Part shown: piece after piece, positions 26,097 to 37,175 of the stretch
Position numbering within the stretch: position 1 is the stretch's first letter
Layout: every line of letters begins with the position of its first letter
Assembly (NCBI GenBank): GCA_012517355.1
Contig: JAAYVD010000022.1
Span: 139,011 to 182,960, forward strand
DNA: 43,950 nucleotides
Source: Candidatus Rifleibacteriota bacterium
GTDB lineage: Bacteria; Muiribacteriota; Ozemobacteria; Ozemobacterales; Ozemobacteraceae
Reading direction: 5' to 3'
The notes under the pieces: generated by a model
The model's database searches: none
Told to the model about the DNA's origin: nothing
What the model saw: the letters and a program-made list of their open reading frames with translations, nothing else
Position numbers and translations under genes: made by a program

Positions 26097-26729
26097 ATGC
26101 CCACCACCAGCACCCCTTTTCCCGCCTTCCGCGACCTGCTCACCTCCCGCCGCAGCGTCCGCCGGTTCCTGCCCAAACCGGTCGACCCCGACCTGATCAC
26201 CAGCGTGATGGAGGCGGTTCGGTTCTCGCCGGCCCCGACCAACCGCCAGTGCTTCCGGTTCATGGCCGCCTCAGACCCCCTGCTGCTGCAGTCGGTCAAG
26301 AACGACGTGATGCGCAAGGTCGAGGGCATCTCCGCCCGGCTCGATGGCGAGGCCGCCGAGACCTTCCGGGAGTATGCCAAGTGGTTCACCTTTTTCGACC
26401 AGGCCCCGCTGGCCATCTTCGGCATCTTCCGCATCTTCGCGAGCCGGCTGCCCAGCGGCTCGAGGAGTGACGCATCGCTGGAAGGCGTGGCCGAGATCCA
26501 GGCCTTCGGCGGGGCGGTGCACGCCCTGATGCTGGGCTTGCACGCGCAGGGGTTGGGCAGTTGCTGGATGAGCGGGCCGCTGGTGGCGGCCACCCAGATC
26601 GAGCACCTGCTCCACATCGACCGCCCCTGGCGGATCGGGGCGGTGATCCCGGTCGGCTGGCCCGACAAGGCCCCAGCCGTGCCCAAGAAGCCGGCTCTGG
26701 AAACCTTCTTTTCCTGGTTCCCCGGCTGA
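26097..26729 (+). CDS. nitroreductase-family flavoprotein
   Basis: 210 residues. FMN-dependent NAD(P)H oxidoreductase fold: FRDLLTSRRSVRRFLPKPVDPDLI (FMN phosphate arginines), FSPAPTNRQCFRFM, then FGGAVHALMLGLHAQGLGSCWMSGPL and IGAVIPVGWPD near the end. Members reduce nitro compounds, quinones or flavins, or dehalogenate; the natural substrate cannot be read from the sequence. A middle insert (FREYAKWFTFFDQAPLAIFG) is aromatic-rich and would cover the active site. GAGGAG lies just before the ATG. It is monocistronic, with a terminator-like hairpin upstream. Confidence 0.88.
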   Translation: MPTTSTPFPAFRDLLTSRRSVRRFLPKPVDPDLITSVMEAVRFSPAPTNRQCFRFMAASDPLLLQSVKNDVMRKVEGISARLDGEAAETFREYAKWFTFFDQAPLAIFGIFRIFASRLPSGSRSDASLEGVAEIQAFGGAVHALMLGLHAQGLGSCWMSGPLVAATQIEHLLHIDRPWRIGAVIPVGWPDKAPAVPKKPALETFFSWFPG

Positions 26730-27013
26730 TCTCCTTTCGCCTCCTGCGGCGAGGCCGGGCCCCGTTCACCGTTCCCCGTTCACCGCTCATCGCCCCGGAG
26801 GGTTCGCCGGGCAGGCACCTGGGCTTCCGCTTCGTGACGCCCTGAAGATGGACGGGGAGGGGGGAGACGTCCCTCGGCGGAGGAAAGTGGCGGGCCGGGT
26901 CGTTTTCCGGTAATCTGGGATGTCTCCTGGGATCCGTTGGCCGCCAATCCGTGTCGATCATCCGTCGGCTGGCGGCCGGGAAAAAGACGGCGGGGGACGA
27001 CCGAGGAGGATGC

Positions 27014-28780
27014 ATGGGACCAGGAACTTCCGGAGGCCGGCAGGCGGGCGGCGTGATTTTCCAGGAGCGGGCGGAGCGGTGGGTTCCGCGGCCCGGGGTG
27101 CTCGTCGTGGTGAAAGGCCGGGTGGCCGGGGGAGCGCCCTTCGAGGGGCACCTGGTCGATCTGTCGCAGAGCGGATGCCAGTTCCTCATTCTGTCGGGCC
27201 AGCTTCATCGCAAGCAGGCGGTCGAGGAAGTGGTGCTGGCGGGCGGGGCGGAAACCCCGGCCCGACCCCTGGGTGGCACGGTCGCCTGGGTCGAAGCCCT
27301 GGGGCCCGGCCGGTTGCTGGTCGGGGCGATCCGGTTCGCCGCGGCGCAACCCGAACTGCTGGCGGGGTTGCGCGACCAGCTCGTGCACCCTTCCTACCGG
27401 CGCGACGGCCTCGACACGCTGCCGGTCGGGTATCAGAACGTCGACTTCGATCTCGACACGCGTTCGCCGCTGGTCGAGTTCTACCGGTGCGACAGCCCCG
27501 ACCTGCTGCAGAAATGCCGGGAGTTCTCCCGGGTGATCGATGTCATGCAGCAGCAGCACCTGTTCCAGGTCCTGTTCCGGACGACCACCACCAGCCGGAT
27601 CGACCGGCGGGTGGTGGTGGCCAACCCCCTCACCCGTCGCGAGCAGGAGATGATCAACTTCGACGGCGGCAGCCCGCTCGGCCTGCACCTGCATCCGCGG
27701 GTGATCGAGCGGGTGCGCGCGGTGCTGGACCAGGCGGGGGCAGGGTCGCCGGTCTGGCCGCAGGGAAGCGGCAGCACCAGCCACCTGCGCGATCTCGAGG
27801 AGATCCTGTGCCGCTTCCACGGGCGCGAGGACGCGATGGTCTTCCCCAGCGGGTATACCGCGTGTCTGGGCGTGATCCGGGGACTGGTGCGGTCGGACGA
27901 CCTGGTGGTGCGGGACAGTTACAGCCTGGCCGCCATCCAGGACGGCTGCCGGGTGGCCGATGCCCGTTCGGCCAGGATCTATCCCCATCTCGACATGGCG
28001 GCGCTGGAGGGCATCCTCCGGGAGGCGGCCAACGACCGGGAGCTGCAGGGCCGGCTGGTGGCCTCGGACGGGGTTTTCCCGCTGACCGGGCGGGTGGCAC
28101 CGCTGGCCGATCTGGTGCGGATCGCCAAGGCCCACGGGGCCAGCCTGCTGGTGGCCGAGGGGGCCGGGGCGGGGGTCCTGGGGCCGACGGGGCGCGGGCT
28201 CGAGGAGCAGTCCGGGCTGCCGGGCGCGGTCGATGTGCTGGTCGGCTCGTTCGGCCAGGCGGCGGGCATGATGGGCGGGTATGTCACCGGTTCCCGGGCG
28301 TTGATCTCCTACCTGCGTTTCTTCGCCAACCCCGGCATCTTCACGACGGCCATGCCGGCCCACGTGTGTGCGGGGGTGACCGAGGCCTACCGCGTGATGA
28401 TGGAGGAGCCCGAGCATCGGGAGCGGCTGTGGAAGAACATCCGGGCGCTGGGGCCGGCCCTGGGGAGCGCCGGGTTCCTGGTTTCCGACCCGACCAGCCC
28501 CTTCCTGACCGTCTTCCTCGGGGCCGACCGGCTGGCGCGGGCGTTCACTGCCGAACTGTTCGCCAGGGGAATCCGGGTCGGGGCGGTCACCTATCCGTCC
28601 GTTCCCGCCGGGGAAGCCTTGCTGCGGTTCTCGGTGTCCGCCAGGCACGTCGCCGAGGATCTCGAGGCGGCGGTGCGGGCGATGACCGAGCTCGGCCGCA
28701 CCTACGGCATTCTGTGCCGGTCGGCCGTGGAAACCCGCGAGATCGGCGAGAGGGCCCAGGTTCCCACACCCCTGACCTGA
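27014..28780 (+). CDS. PilZ domain fused to a PLP-less alpha-oxoamine synthase fold
   Basis: 588 residues. The ATG at 27014 has GAGGAGG 5 nt upstream. Residues about 17-118 are a PilZ domain: R22xxxR26 and D49xSxxG54 are the two c-di-GMP contact motifs, both intact. Residues about 200-570 follow the alpha-oxoamine synthase fold (BioF, KBL, serine palmitoyltransferase): GSGSTSHLRDLEEILCRF, VFPSGYTACLGVI, SDGVFPLTGRVAPLADL and GGYVTGS. The PLP residues are gone. Where the family has the lysine in TFSKxxG it has SFGQAAG (Gln415). DEAH-x-x-G has become AEGAGAG (Ala381, Ala385), and the substrate/PLP His in NHAS has become SLAA. This is therefore probably a c-di-GMP-controlled pseudoenzyme. No adjacent biosynthetic partner. 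Confidence 0.88.
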   Translation: MGPGTSGGRQAGGVIFQERAERWVPRPGVLVVVKGRVAGGAPFEGHLVDLSQSGCQFLILSGQLHRKQAVEEVVLAGGAETPARPLGGTVAWVEALGPGRLLVGAIRFAAAQPELLAGLRDQLVHPSYRRDGLDTLPVGYQNVDFDLDTRSPLVEFYRCDSPDLLQKCREFSRVIDVMQQQHLFQVLFRTTTTSRIDRRVVVANPLTRREQEMINFDGGSPLGLHLHPRVIERVRAVLDQAGAGSPVWPQGSGSTSHLRDLEEILCRFHGREDAMVFPSGYTACLGVIRGLVRSDDLVVRDSYSLAAIQDGCRVADARSARIYPHLDMAALEGILREAANDRELQGRLVASDGVFPLTGRVAPLADLVRIAKAHGASLLVAEGAGAGVLGPTGRGLEEQSGLPGAVDVLVGSFGQAAGMMGGYVTGSRALISYLRFFANPGIFTTAMPAHVCAGVTEAYRVMMEEPEHRERLWKNIRALGPALGSAGFLVSDPTSPFLTVFLGADRLARAFTAELFARGIRVGAVTYPSVPAGEALLRFSVSARHVAEDLEAAVRAMTELGRTYGILCRSAVETREIGERAQVPTPLT

Positions 28781-28857
28781 CCGGACCGGGGGGATTTTCG
28801 GTCTGGTCCTTGGGCAATCCTGACTTTGGGGGGCCGGACGAAAAACGGGTAGCCGCG

Positions 28858-28885
28858 GATGGACGCGGATGGACGCGGACGAGGG
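28858..28885 (+). repeat. dispersed 10-bp repeat, copy 2
   Basis: GATGGACGCG twice, then GACGAGGGCG. The layout is the same as at 20331 and 43726. Confidence 0.7.
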
Positions 28886-29198
28886 CGGGTGGGTCTCAGC
28901 GTGTAGCAGCGTTCATCAGAGGCAGGACCACCTGTTCCGGCTTCCGGGGGGAAGCCGGAGGATGGCCATCCCATGCGAAACTGTGGCTTTCCTCGCCCCG
29001 CCTGGCCCGGCAATCAATGTCGAGTCTGCAGGCAAGTTGAGACGAGGCGGGTTGGCCTGACCGGGCGGACGGGCGCTTTGGGGGGGCTGACCGGGCAGTT
29101 GGTGGACAGCCGGCAGACGGGTGTGGCCGCCGGCGGATCGGTCGGGCCTGGCCGGCCGTGGCCCGGGGCACTTTTGGTGAAACCTTCGGCGCGGGCGG

Positions 29199-29243: not shown

Positions 29244-30377
29244 ATGCGTCGGGTCCACCTGCGGAGCCTGGTCCTGATTTCCCTGGCGGTGGGGCTGTGG
29301 TTCCCCCTGGCAGGCCATTCCCAGAACATGGAGGAGATCCTCGGCATCGGTTCCGGGAACACCGCCCAGGGGCCGGTGGTGCGGCAGACGGTCAGCACCT
29401 CCGGCCAGGACACGGGAGACGCCGCGGTCATCCGCGCCGAGATCAACGCGCTGCTCGACGAGATCAACAAGCTGCTCGAGGAGATCGGCAAGGCCCTGAA
29501 GGACACGGCCGGCACCGTCACGGGAAAGGCCAAGGAAGCCGCGGACAAGGCCAAGGACAAGGTCAAAGAGACGGCCGACAAGGTCAAGGACAAGGTCAAG
29601 GAAACCGCCGACAAGGTCAAGGACAAGGTCACCGGCTCCTCCTCGACCACCTACACGGTCCGCCAGGGCGACAGCCTGTGGGCGATCGCCCAGCGGCTCC
29701 TGGGGAACGGCAACCGGTGGCCCGAGATCGTCGAGGCCAACAAGAGCCGGTATCCCTCGCTGGCGAAGAACCCCAACCTGATCTACGCCGGCTGGAAGCT
29801 GACGATTCCCGGAGCCCGCTCCACGACCGGGCCTTCCACCACCACTCCTCCGCCCACCTCCGGGACCACCCCCCCCTCGTCGTCGTCGGGCGAGTCGGCC
29901 GCCCTGAACGCCTGGAAGGGTGGCAAGCTGGCCCCCTCCGAGTTCTGCCGCCTGCTGGGCCCCGTGGCGCGCGAATCGATGAAGGTGACCGGGGTTCCCG
30001 CCTCGGTGACCCTCGCCCAGGCCGCCCTCGAAACCGGGTGGGGCCGGGCGACCATCGGCGACGCCAAGAACCTGTTCGGCATCAAGGGAACCGGTCCGGC
30101 CGGCTCCATCACCGTGAAGACGCAGGAATACATCAACGGCCGGTACGTCACGGTCAACGGCACCTTCCGCAAATACCACACCTGGCGGGAGTCGATCGAC
30201 GACCATGCCCGCCTGCTGACCACGGCCTCGCGCTACCGGAACTGCATGGCGAACAAGAGCAACCCTGACCAGTTCGCCCGCGAGCTGCAGAAGGCCGGCT
30301 ACGCGACCAGCCCGACCTATGCCTCGACCCTGATAAGTATCATGAAACAGTACAACTTGTATCAATATGACAAATGA
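29244..30377 (+). CDS. exported LysM protein with glucosaminidase domain
   Basis: 377 residues. Signal peptide 1-26. Residues about 60-90 are a Leu/Glu-rich helix. About 91-130 is an 11-residue periodic Lys/Ala/Asp/Glu stretch (ADKVKDKVKET repeated) like group 3 LEA or apolipoprotein helices, encoded by a 33-bp direct repeat. LysM lies at 137-188 (YTVRQGDSLWAIAQRLLGNG). A Thr/Pro/Ser linker follows. The C-terminal domain, 229-377, is a FlgJ-type glucosaminidase: TLAQAALETGWG (catalytic Glu), NLFGIKG, YRNC and a YxxTL end. It should cut glycan strands of peptidoglycan. CGGAGG is 7 nt before the ATG. The next gene starts 20 nt later. Confidence 0.9.
   Translation: MRRVHLRSLVLISLAVGLWFPLAGHSQNMEEILGIGSGNTAQGPVVRQTVSTSGQDTGDAAVIRAEINALLDEINKLLEEIGKALKDTAGTVTGKAKEAADKAKDKVKETADKVKDKVKETADKVKDKVTGSSSTTYTVRQGDSLWAIAQRLLGNGNRWPEIVEANKSRYPSLAKNPNLIYAGWKLTIPGARSTTGPSTTTPPPTSGTTPPSSSSGESAALNAWKGGKLAPSEFCRLLGPVARESMKVTGVPASVTLAQAALETGWGRATIGDAKNLFGIKGTGPAGSITVKTQEYINGRYVTVNGTFRKYHTWRESIDDHARLLTTASRYRNCMANKSNPDQFARELQKAGYATSPTYASTLISIMKQYNLYQYDK
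29548..29630 (+). repeat. 33-bp direct repeat inside the LysM-glucosaminidase gene
   Basis: About two and a half copies of gacaaggtcaaggacaaggt, then caaggaaacngcc, encoding ADKVKDKVKET. The units differ at third positions. Confidence 0.8.
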
Positions 30378-34009: not shown

Positions 34010-34909
34010 ATGGAGCGGCATGCTACCTGGCCGGTTGCCCGGATCGTGGTCTGGGTGGTCGTGCTCGGACTGGTCTTGCTGGGGACGGCCGGCCAGGGCG
34101 GTGACCCCCGGTCGCCGGGAGGCGCCGTCTCCGGTCGTCCGGCGGATTCCGCCGGGGATTCCGGGGCTGACGCCACCCTTCCGGCCGGTTCCGGGGCCAC
34201 GGGGGAAGCGGCCCTGACCGGGATCCCCGCCGCCGACCCGGTTGGATCCAGAACCCCGCCGCTCCTTTCTCACCTCGACCAGGAAAGGTTGTGCGGGGAG
34301 TTGTTGGCGAGCCTTCCCGTTCCCCTCGGTCCTCAGGACATGACCGCCCTGGAGGAGCGCTACCTGCGGGTCCTGCGGGACTGCCCGGCAGCCTCCCGGG
34401 CTCCCGAGGCGGCTTTCCGGCTGGCCAGCCTGTATTTCGAAAACTCCGAACCCCCCCGCGTGGAGCCTTGCCTGCAGGCCCTCAAGCTGCTCGAGGACCG
34501 GTATCCCACCTCGGCGTTCGCCCGCCGGGCGGTTCCGCGGTTGCTGCAACTGGCTCAGCAGGCGGAGGATTGGCCGTTCCTGGCCGATTACCTGGACCGC
34601 CTCGTCCATCGGGAGGACTGCCTCCAGGCCGACCGGATCTCCTACATGGTCCATCTGGCGGAGGTGCTCGAACGTCTGGGGAGGCCTGACGAGGGCCGCC
34701 CCTGGCTGGAACGGGTGATGCGGGAGGCGGCGGGGACGCCGATGGCCGACCTGGCGCGGACCATTCTCGAGCAAGAGGCGGCGGGTCTGCCGCCGGATGG
34801 GGGGGAAGACTCTTTGGCGTCTCCCGCCGAGCCTCTTCCGGCCTCGGGTGCCGACCCCGTTTCCGGTCTGTCCGGCGCCCCGGCTTCCGCTTCCCCTCTC
34901 GCCCCCTGA
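34010..34909 (+). CDS. membrane-anchored TPR-like protein
   Basis: 299 residues. Hydrophobic helix 9-26 (ARIVVWVVVLGLVLLGTAG), either an anchor or an uncleaved signal. An Ala/Gly/Ser/Pro-rich stretch runs to about 80. Helical repeats of tol-pal/BamD type follow (about 105-245: LEERYLRVLRDCPAASRAPEAAFRLASLYFE, ALKLLEDRYPTSAFARRAVPRLLQLA, LAEVLERLGRPDEGRPWLERVM). A low-complexity tail ends it. GGAAGGAG precedes the ATG. No catalytic motif; a protein-binding role in the envelope is likely. It is followed after 79 bp by the HEAT-repeat gene, which has its own promoter. Confidence 0.75.
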   Translation: MERHATWPVARIVVWVVVLGLVLLGTAGQGGDPRSPGGAVSGRPADSAGDSGADATLPAGSGATGEAALTGIPAADPVGSRTPPLLSHLDQERLCGELLASLPVPLGPQDMTALEERYLRVLRDCPAASRAPEAAFRLASLYFENSEPPRVEPCLQALKLLEDRYPTSAFARRAVPRLLQLAQQAEDWPFLADYLDRLVHREDCLQADRISYMVHLAEVLERLGRPDEGRPWLERVMREAAGTPMADLARTILEQEAAGLPPDGGEDSLASPAEPLPASGADPVSGLSGAPASASPLAP

Positions 34910-34948
34910 CGGCGAAGAGGGCGGCGGCGGGGCACCGGCGGCCCCGTA

Positions 34949-34957
34949 TGGTATAAT
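34949..34957 (+). promoter_or_regulatory. extended -10 TGGTATAAT before the HEAT-repeat gene
   Basis: A perfect TATAAT (34952-34957) with TG one base upstream, 31 bp before the ATG at 34989. No -35 is recognisable. Confidence 0.65.
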
Positions 34958-34988
34958 CGGCCCGCGAGAGGGGGGTGGAACCAGACCC

Positions 34989-37175
34989 ATGCAAGAGAGC
35001 CTTTCCCGGATCTTCCAGACCATGCTTGGGCTGCTCGAGGGGCCCGACTACGAGTTGCGGCGCCGCAGCCTCATGGCGCTCAGCCGCCTGCGGGGCGACA
35101 TGGCGGCCGACATCATCTTCGAACGGTACCGCAGCGACAACCTGGAAGACTACCTGGTCCTGGCCGTCTCCCGCATGGATCCCAGGAAGTCGACCCCCAT
35201 CCTCATCGCCGCCCTGAGCGACATGCACCTCGAAGCGCGCCTGACCGCGGCCGAAGCGCTGGTCAAGCAGCGCTCGGAGGAGTCGGTCGCCGCCCTGCTG
35301 GCCACCGTCGAGGCCTATCTCAAGCAAGACCCCGGCGGGAGGAAGGAGAACCTGGTCTCCGAGGAGGCTCTGCAGGGTATCGCCCGGGCCCTCGGCGAGA
35401 TCGCCACCCCGATGTGCCTGGGCCTGCTGCGGAAACTGATCCTGCAGGAGAAGAACGAGCGGGTGCGGGCCACGGTGGTCGGCGTGCTCGGGCAGCACAT
35501 CAACGATTCCATGGTTCCCATGTTCCAGGGGTTGCTCAAGGACGCCGACCCGCGGGTCCGGTCGAACGCCATCGAATCGCTGGCCAACCTGCAGAAACCC
35601 ACGATCATCGGCCTTCTGCAGCCCTACCTGTTCGACCCCCATCCGCGGGTGAAGGCCAACGCGGCCAAGGCCATCTGGAAGTTCGGGGATTTCGACGTTT
35701 CCGCGACCCTGAAGGAGATGCTGACCGGAGCCGACAAGAAGCTGCGGGTTTCGGGCATCTACGCCGTGGGCGAGATCAGGCTCGAAGCCTTTCAGAAGAC
35801 GATCCTGGGGTTCCTGGCCGATCCCGATCCCGATGTGCGGCGGAACTGCGTGGTGGCCCTGCGGAAGTTCCAGCAGAAGCAGGGGGCGTCAGCCCTTGCC
35901 CCGTTGTTGGCCGATCCCGTGCCTGAGGTGCGGCAGCAGGTCGCCATCAGCCTGGGGGAGGTTCTTCAGGAGGAGGCGGTTCCCATCCTGCTGAAGCGGC
36001 TTGGCGTGGAACCGGCGGCCAACATCCGCAGCCATCTGGCCTCGATCATCGGGAAGTTTGGCAAGCCCGAGCACTTCGCCTCGTTGCTTCCCCTCCTGCA
36101 GGATGACGATGAGCGGGTGGTCGGCAACGTCATCGAGGCCCTGCAGAAAATGAAACCGAAGGAGCCGCACGCCGCGGCGGTGGCCTCCTTGCGCCGGTTC
36201 CTCGATTCGTCGAACAACCGGATCCGGGCCAACTCGATCCGGTTCCTCTGGGAATGGGGGTTCACCGACGTGCTCGACGCCCTGCATGGGTTGATCGCCT
36301 CGGGCAACCCGGAAAAGGTGACCAGCGGGCTGTTCTGCCTGGGCGAGGTCTTTTCCTCCGTATCCCACCAAGGCGGGAACCTGCTGCAAACCTTCGATTC
36401 GATCATGAAATCGGCCGTCGAGGCCAAACGTCGCCAGTTCGCGGACAAGGGCGGCGGCATCGGCGACGCCAAGGTGCGTGCCCTCTGGGAGAAAACCCAG
36501 GAGGCCCTGAAGGCCAACCGGTTGCCGGAGGCCCGCCAAGGACTGGAGGCGATCCTGCAGGCGGCCCCGCGGTTGCATCCCGCGCTGGTGGCGTTGGGGG
36601 AACTCACGTTCCGGGAGGGGGCGCTCGCCGAGGCTGAGGTCCTGTTCCAGCGGGCCCTGGCGGTCAGTCCCAACATCCTGAAGGCGCACTATTCGCTGGG
36701 ACAGATCTACCACCGGCAGCGGAACTGGGCCAGGGCCATCCATGCTTTGCAGATGACCATCCGGCTCTATCCCAAGCTCCCGCAGGCCTACCTGATCCTG
36801 GCCGATTCGCTCGAGGCCGAGAATCGCTGGAAGGAGGCCGCCGAGACCCTGAAACGGCTGGCCGCGCTCGTGCCCAAGAATCCGCAGGTGATGCAGCGGC
36901 AGGCCCGGGCCACCTTCCTGTCCGGCGCCGTTGGCGAGGCCATCCCGTTGGCGCGCGCGGCGGCGGCGGTCGGGCAGATCGATGCCTTCACGACGCTGAT
37001 CCTGGGGGTGGGGGAGTATTTCGGCGGGCATCCCGAGAAGGCCTTGGCCACCATCCTGGCGGTGATGGGCGTCCTGACCGAAAAGCCCGACCCCCGCGCC
37101 CTGGCCGACGCCAACCGCCTGATCAAGGTCTTCCAGGGGCTCCTCGCCCGCAAGGAACCGTCGGTCCCCCGGTGA
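34989..37175 (+). CDS. large HEAT-repeat protein with C-terminal TPRs
   Basis: 728 residues, no signal peptide, so cytoplasmic. From about 10 to 480 there are HEAT/PBS-lyase-like repeats of about 31-37 residues (LLKDADPRVRSNAIESLANLQ, FDPHPRVKANAAKAIWKFGD, LADPDPDVRRNCVVALRKF, LADPVPEVRQQVAISLGEV). From about 500 to 700 are TPR units (ALKANRLPEARQGLEAIL, LTFREGALAEAEVLFQRALAVSPNILKAHYSLGQIY, LYPKLPQAYLILADSLEAENRWKEAAETL). It is a pure scaffold without an enzymatic motif. Similar proteins occur in signalling, motility and pilus contexts, but nothing here fixes the partner. The start fits where the repeat begins and the promoter lies just upstream. Confidence 0.85.
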   Translation: MQESLSRIFQTMLGLLEGPDYELRRRSLMALSRLRGDMAADIIFERYRSDNLEDYLVLAVSRMDPRKSTPILIAALSDMHLEARLTAAEALVKQRSEESVAALLATVEAYLKQDPGGRKENLVSEEALQGIARALGEIATPMCLGLLRKLILQEKNERVRATVVGVLGQHINDSMVPMFQGLLKDADPRVRSNAIESLANLQKPTIIGLLQPYLFDPHPRVKANAAKAIWKFGDFDVSATLKEMLTGADKKLRVSGIYAVGEIRLEAFQKTILGFLADPDPDVRRNCVVALRKFQQKQGASALAPLLADPVPEVRQQVAISLGEVLQEEAVPILLKRLGVEPAANIRSHLASIIGKFGKPEHFASLLPLLQDDDERVVGNVIEALQKMKPKEPHAAAVASLRRFLDSSNNRIRANSIRFLWEWGFTDVLDALHGLIASGNPEKVTSGLFCLGEVFSSVSHQGGNLLQTFDSIMKSAVEAKRRQFADKGGGIGDAKVRALWEKTQEALKANRLPEARQGLEAILQAAPRLHPALVALGELTFREGALAEAEVLFQRALAVSPNILKAHYSLGQIYHRQRNWARAIHALQMTIRLYPKLPQAYLILADSLEAENRWKEAAETLKRLAALVPKNPQVMQRQARATFLSGAVGEAIPLARAAAAVGQIDAFTTLILGVGEYFGGHPEKALATILAVMGVLTEKPDPRALADANRLIKVFQGLLARKEPSVPR

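Follow-up and report, generated by a model that had tools for sequence, protein, structure and literature searches.

A single open reading frame in the window, a stretch of 43,950 nucleotides from a Candidatus Rifleibacteriota genome, joins a PilZ domain to an alpha-oxoamine synthase (AOS) domain that has kept the enzyme scaffold and lost the catalytic residues. On balance, the product is probably a c-di-GMP-responsive regulatory protein and not an enzyme, with the dead AOS half serving to dimerise or to bind a partner. The fusion gene occupies positions 27014-28780 of the forward strand (588 codons, with zero stops or frameshifts) within a stop-to-stop frame of 26846-28780. Its ATG at 27014 lies just behind a GAGGAGG and lines up with the positions at which the PilZ genes begin in two congeners (G001 and G002). 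The PilZ domain (residues ~16-125; 27059-27388), delimited by Pfam and by alignment with the congeners, contains R22xxxR26 and D49xSxxG54, and is followed on the same strand by a linker (residues ~126-159; 27389-27490), at which the congeners' PilZ genes stop, and by the putatively inactive AOS domain (residues ~160-569; 27491-28720). Outside the fusion, a nitroreductase-family protein (26097-26729) lies upstream and a LysM-glucosaminidase (29244-30377) downstream, both on the forward strand and syntenic in both congeners. A first-pass annotation of this DNA had described a PilZ domain with both ligand motifs and a complete AOS fold in one frame, and the coordinates, the frame, the congener alignment and the Pfam, bioF and PDB matches agree with that description.

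The AOS half matched Pfam Aminotran_1_2 (2e-36) and the TIGR00858 bioF model (1e-81, residues 206-557), and its best PDB matches were all AOS enzymes. The best NCBIfam equivalog was also bioF, with 274 bits against a cut-off of 426, and no AOS equivalog cut-off was reached; the live AOS paralogues of the genome likewise score below their NCBIfam equivalog cut-offs. AlphaFold returned the AOS fold at high confidence for this half, and Foldseek comparison of the model with AOS structures gave target-normalised TM values mostly of ~0.8-0.86. The half has fold, length, most structural glycines and the C-terminal Arg in common with BioF, KBL and SPT, but it has none of their Lys, Asp, His and His residues. 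It is 31-36% identical to live enzymes of clades A and B of the family and sits on a very long branch (1.8). The wider tree places it beside clade A, which holds the live paralogue on contig C131 of the same genome, and one outside sequence (support 99/97); in topology tests, neither clade A nor clade B was rejected as its group. The AU test rejected a sister position to either resident paralogue, L002 (p=7.7e-5) or L003 (p=1.7e-5), and with it an origin by recent copying of one of the genome's own live AOS genes; no other gene in the genome is more than 38% identical to the AOS half. A separate live AOS clade from one genus of another phylum (L097-L109) is 33-37% identical to the AOS half over the alignment; its members carry Ser or Asn at position 219, where Asn is usual in AOS, and Tyr at 258 in place of the usual His.

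Alignment of the AOS half showed that the PLP-site Lys is replaced by Q415, the Asp by A381, and the two His residues by A384 and L305. The further substitutions S307A, S356P, D358T, S414G, N219G and Y221P were also observed, and the SMD motif is lost. Of the residues lost, the His at position 305 and N219 are ones through which AOS enzymes touch substrate or PLP. The complete Lys, Asp, His and His set is retained in all of the 98 distinct homologues examined, and its loss was found only in the fusion protein among the sequences compared. The first-pass annotation had read Gln415, Ala381 and Ala/Leu at these positions and had proposed an alignment of PLP sites as a check; with that alignment made, its reading of the residues is upheld, and the losses, together with the AOS-matching model, also support its claim that catalysis was lost and the enzyme fold conserved. 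By the known mechanism, the AOS half is thus predicted to be incapable of AOS chemistry.

The changes are unevenly distributed. Seventy positions are invariant in 14 live AOS of the family, and 24 of these are changed in the AOS half: 14 of 21 within the active-site motifs vs 10 of 49 elsewhere (Fisher p=3e-4), which leaves 7/21 kept inside the motifs and 39/49 outside. The motifs counted as active-site were residues 217-223, 280-281, 305-307, 352-359, 381-384 and 412-415, with borders taken from known AOS motifs and drawn after the alignment was seen. Residues kept include the carboxylate-binding Arg R538, the PLP-pocket Gly-Tyr pair (G280/Y281) and T444, which occupies the position of the trans phosphate-cup Ser/Thr. 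R538 was equated with Arg390 of SpSPT by aligning the PPATPAGTFLLR motif by eye with YPSVPAGEALLR at 527-538. At 0.92, GC3 in the AOS half matches that of neighbouring genes and of the live paralogue. The clustering of losses in active-site motifs, this GC3 and the absence of any stop or frameshift point to a maintained scaffold and not to ordinary decay, and plain decay is accordingly less likely than loss of chemistry with retention of the scaffold.

The PilZ half contains R22-W-V-P-R26 (RxxxR) and D49-L-S-Q-S-G54 (D/NxSxxG). It scored 21.9 bits against Pfam PF07238, just below the gathering cut-off of 22.5 (E 0.0028 in the full protein and 2e-4 for the domain alone), and PF07238 was matched by all three PilZ orthologs, with a best E of 2.6e-5. 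PDB matches of this half were PilZ-type proteins only, at a non-significant E of ~0.9. Residues 1-195 of the AlphaFold model have pLDDT <50, obtained from an input alignment of 12 rows that contained no PilZ relatives; the PilZ half is therefore not reliably modelled, and assignment of its fold rests on sequence. In the stand-alone PilZ proteins of both congeners the second Arg of RxxxR is aligned with Gln. These proteins (L031 8842-9258; L032 3686-4054) read RxxxQ followed by Arg, and from this motif c-di-GMP binding there appears doubtful. The PilZ part of the fusion (window 27014-27400) has a dN/dS of 0.39-0.43 relative to the congeners, vs 0.14 between the congeners themselves and 0.11-0.24 for neighbouring genes in the same genome pairs. 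Its rate on the fusion lineage is thus high and exceeds that of each of the four neighbours measured.

Both congeners carry an intact block consisting of an SNF2 helicase, a 323-aa protein, a 100-aa protein, a nitroreductase, PilZ, LysM-glucosaminidase and an FG-GAP protein. At the syntenic point of this newly observed neighbourhood the PilZ gene is unfused in both: it ends in a Pro-rich tail, stops at ~residue 130 in the alignment with the fusion, and is followed by no AOS. Because the congeners have stand-alone PilZ, the fusion is a species-level feature in this sample. For every protein compared, the two congeners group together as sisters, and a gain in the fusion species and a single loss in the congeners are therefore equally parsimonious. 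PilZ of this type was not found in other genomes of the phylum and is confined to the genus within it. Neither a search of ~480 genomes with the protein sequence nor a scan of genome contigs recovered a full-length ortholog of the fusion; the contig scan and the searches of the phylum and of relatives gave live, unfused AOS only. Orthologs retaining the Lys, which the first-pass annotation had named as evidence against its reading, thus did not appear, the live homologues being unfused and from other lineages. The fusion has been seen in one genome only, whose draft assembly comprises 184 contigs and has 1.88% contamination.

That genome contains 22 GGDEF matches, and c-di-GMP is for this reason very likely made in the cell; a PilZ-based c-di-GMP input, as claimed in the first-pass annotation, is accordingly plausible on sequence grounds. 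Two further PilZ proteins occur in the genome and were rejected as AOS fusions, one being an MCP-PilZ and one a different multidomain protein. Of the PilZ proteins other than the fusion, the one at L091 391-1911 (reverse strand) is 506 aa long, with a long unassigned sequence after the PilZ domain. The genome also carries two live AOS paralogues, on contigs C131 and C143, and both adjoin DAGK/YegS-type lipid kinases. On C131 (L033 6305-11617) the live AOS, a ketosynthase, a PKS dehydratase-like domain and an epimerase/reductase form one row; DAGK/YegS lipid kinase, UbiA and MMPL genes are nearby, and the row is likely, from its gene content, to be a sphingoid-like lipid cluster. On C143 (L034 6333-8599) a DAGK-type lipid kinase directly follows the second live AOS, whose congener ortholog (L011) is 86% identical. 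The fusion gene is unlinked to either paralogue, and no partner gene was found beside it.

The AOS fold normally dimerises. In the regulatory reading that we favour, the PilZ domain would be the c-di-GMP input, as its motifs and the GGDEF proteins of the genome suggest, and the AOS half, with its catalytic centre erased and its scaffold kept, would be a module for dimerisation and partner binding. Binding of c-di-GMP to PilZ would change what the dead AOS half binds and so switch another protein, which might be one of the genome's own live AOS, to a different state. Against this stand the single draft genome with no full-length ortholog in the searches made, the PilZ score just below the Pfam cut-off, the RxxxQ of the congeners and the lack of a partner gene next door; the PilZ dN/dS and the AOS branch length would be expected under relaxed constraint no less than under a new role. 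The fusion is of interest because it shows cleanly, in nature, an AOS that has lost its catalytic set and kept its scaffold, and as a signalling domain joined to an AOS within one genus in which the unfused state survives in congeners.

Related designs are known. In YcgR, BcsA and Alg44, too, a PilZ barrel bearing RxxxR and DxSxxG is coupled with an output module (PMC12564702), but the output module of the fusion is a putatively dead PLP enzyme. The degenerate GGDEF/EAL effectors PopA, FimX and LapD likewise have an enzyme fold that has lost catalysis and work in c-di-GMP signalling (PMC12564702), a role that is proposed for the fusion; in these effectors the dead enzyme itself binds c-di-GMP, whereas in the fusion PilZ would do so. 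A literature search of limited breadth found no published PilZ-AOS fusions or AOS pseudoenzymes. The first-pass annotation had treated a lysine-less AOS as unprecedented, and this does not hold: the AOS subunit SPT1/LCB1 of eukaryotic serine palmitoyltransferase has no PLP lysine and no equivalents of His159, His234, Asp231 and Arg390 (PMC6148460), and it acts as the partner of a live subunit, which suggests a heterodimer mechanism for the fusion. The AOS half of the fusion shares the AOS fold and the absence of Lys265, Asp231, His159 and His234 equivalents, four of the five SPT1/LCB1 losses; the Arg390 equivalent is kept as R538 in the fusion and lost in SPT1. In contrast to SPT1/LCB1 (SPTLC1), the fusion is bacterial and joined to PilZ, and its AOS half is closer in sequence to bacterial AOS than to LCB1.

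A specific form of the favoured reading makes an AOS the partner: the dead half would pair with the live AOS of C131 or C143, in the way that SPT1/LCB1 pairs with SPT2/LCB2, so that c-di-GMP tunes sphingoid-like lipid synthesis. We regard this as possible and hold it tentatively. The shared set of losses (PMC6148460) and the building of AOS active sites at the dimer interface by residues of both subunits (PMC3794620) speak for it, as do the retention of T444, the position beside clade A with the C131 paralogue, and the lipid-kinase, ketosynthase, dehydratase and epimerase-like reductase neighbours, which would fit sphingoid-type lipid synthesis. Relatives without the fusion, however, retain the same live AOS genes, which consequently do not need it; moreover, R538 is kept where SPT1 has lost its counterpart, the gene is unlinked to both paralogues, and the clade A grouping is insecure. 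A fuller proposal is doubtful: in it the fusion would be a bacterial counterpart of LCB1 under c-di-GMP control, forming dimers with a live SPT-like AOS and tying the messenger to the production of sphingoid-type membrane lipids. If the fusion does control a live AOS, c-di-GMP would be linked to sphingoid-like lipid synthesis in an independent bacterial parallel to LCB1.

The very long AOS branch, the raised PilZ dN/dS and the existence of congeners that live without the AOS half would also fit an accidental fusion in which the AOS drifts without a function of its own and only PilZ matters. The AOS is nevertheless whole, in frame, of GC3 0.92 and well predicted in fold, and its scaffold is spared relative to its active site, which argues against uniform drift and makes such a passenger unlikely. 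The first-pass annotation had suggested that the AOS half senses an amino acid or acyl-CoA and modulates PilZ. Retention of R538, G280, Y281 and T444 agrees with a ligand sensor, but loss of the ring-stacking and substrate-contacting His (L305), of N219, Y221 and S307, and of the SMD motif indicates that most of the former ligand pocket has gone, and this role seems quite improbable. An assembly artefact or chimera, which the contig number, the contamination and the uniqueness of the join might suggest, is highly improbable: both flanks match the two congeners in gene order and orientation, the join is in frame, no gene of the genome exceeds 38% identity to the AOS, and codon usage fits the genome.

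Two observations were also made downstream of the fusion gene. The intergenic stretch that follows it is longer than its counterpart in the congeners and contains short tandem GGATGGACGC repeats at window positions 28840-28890. Further along, positions 34797-37172 of the window encode a protein with HEAT-repeat and TPR.
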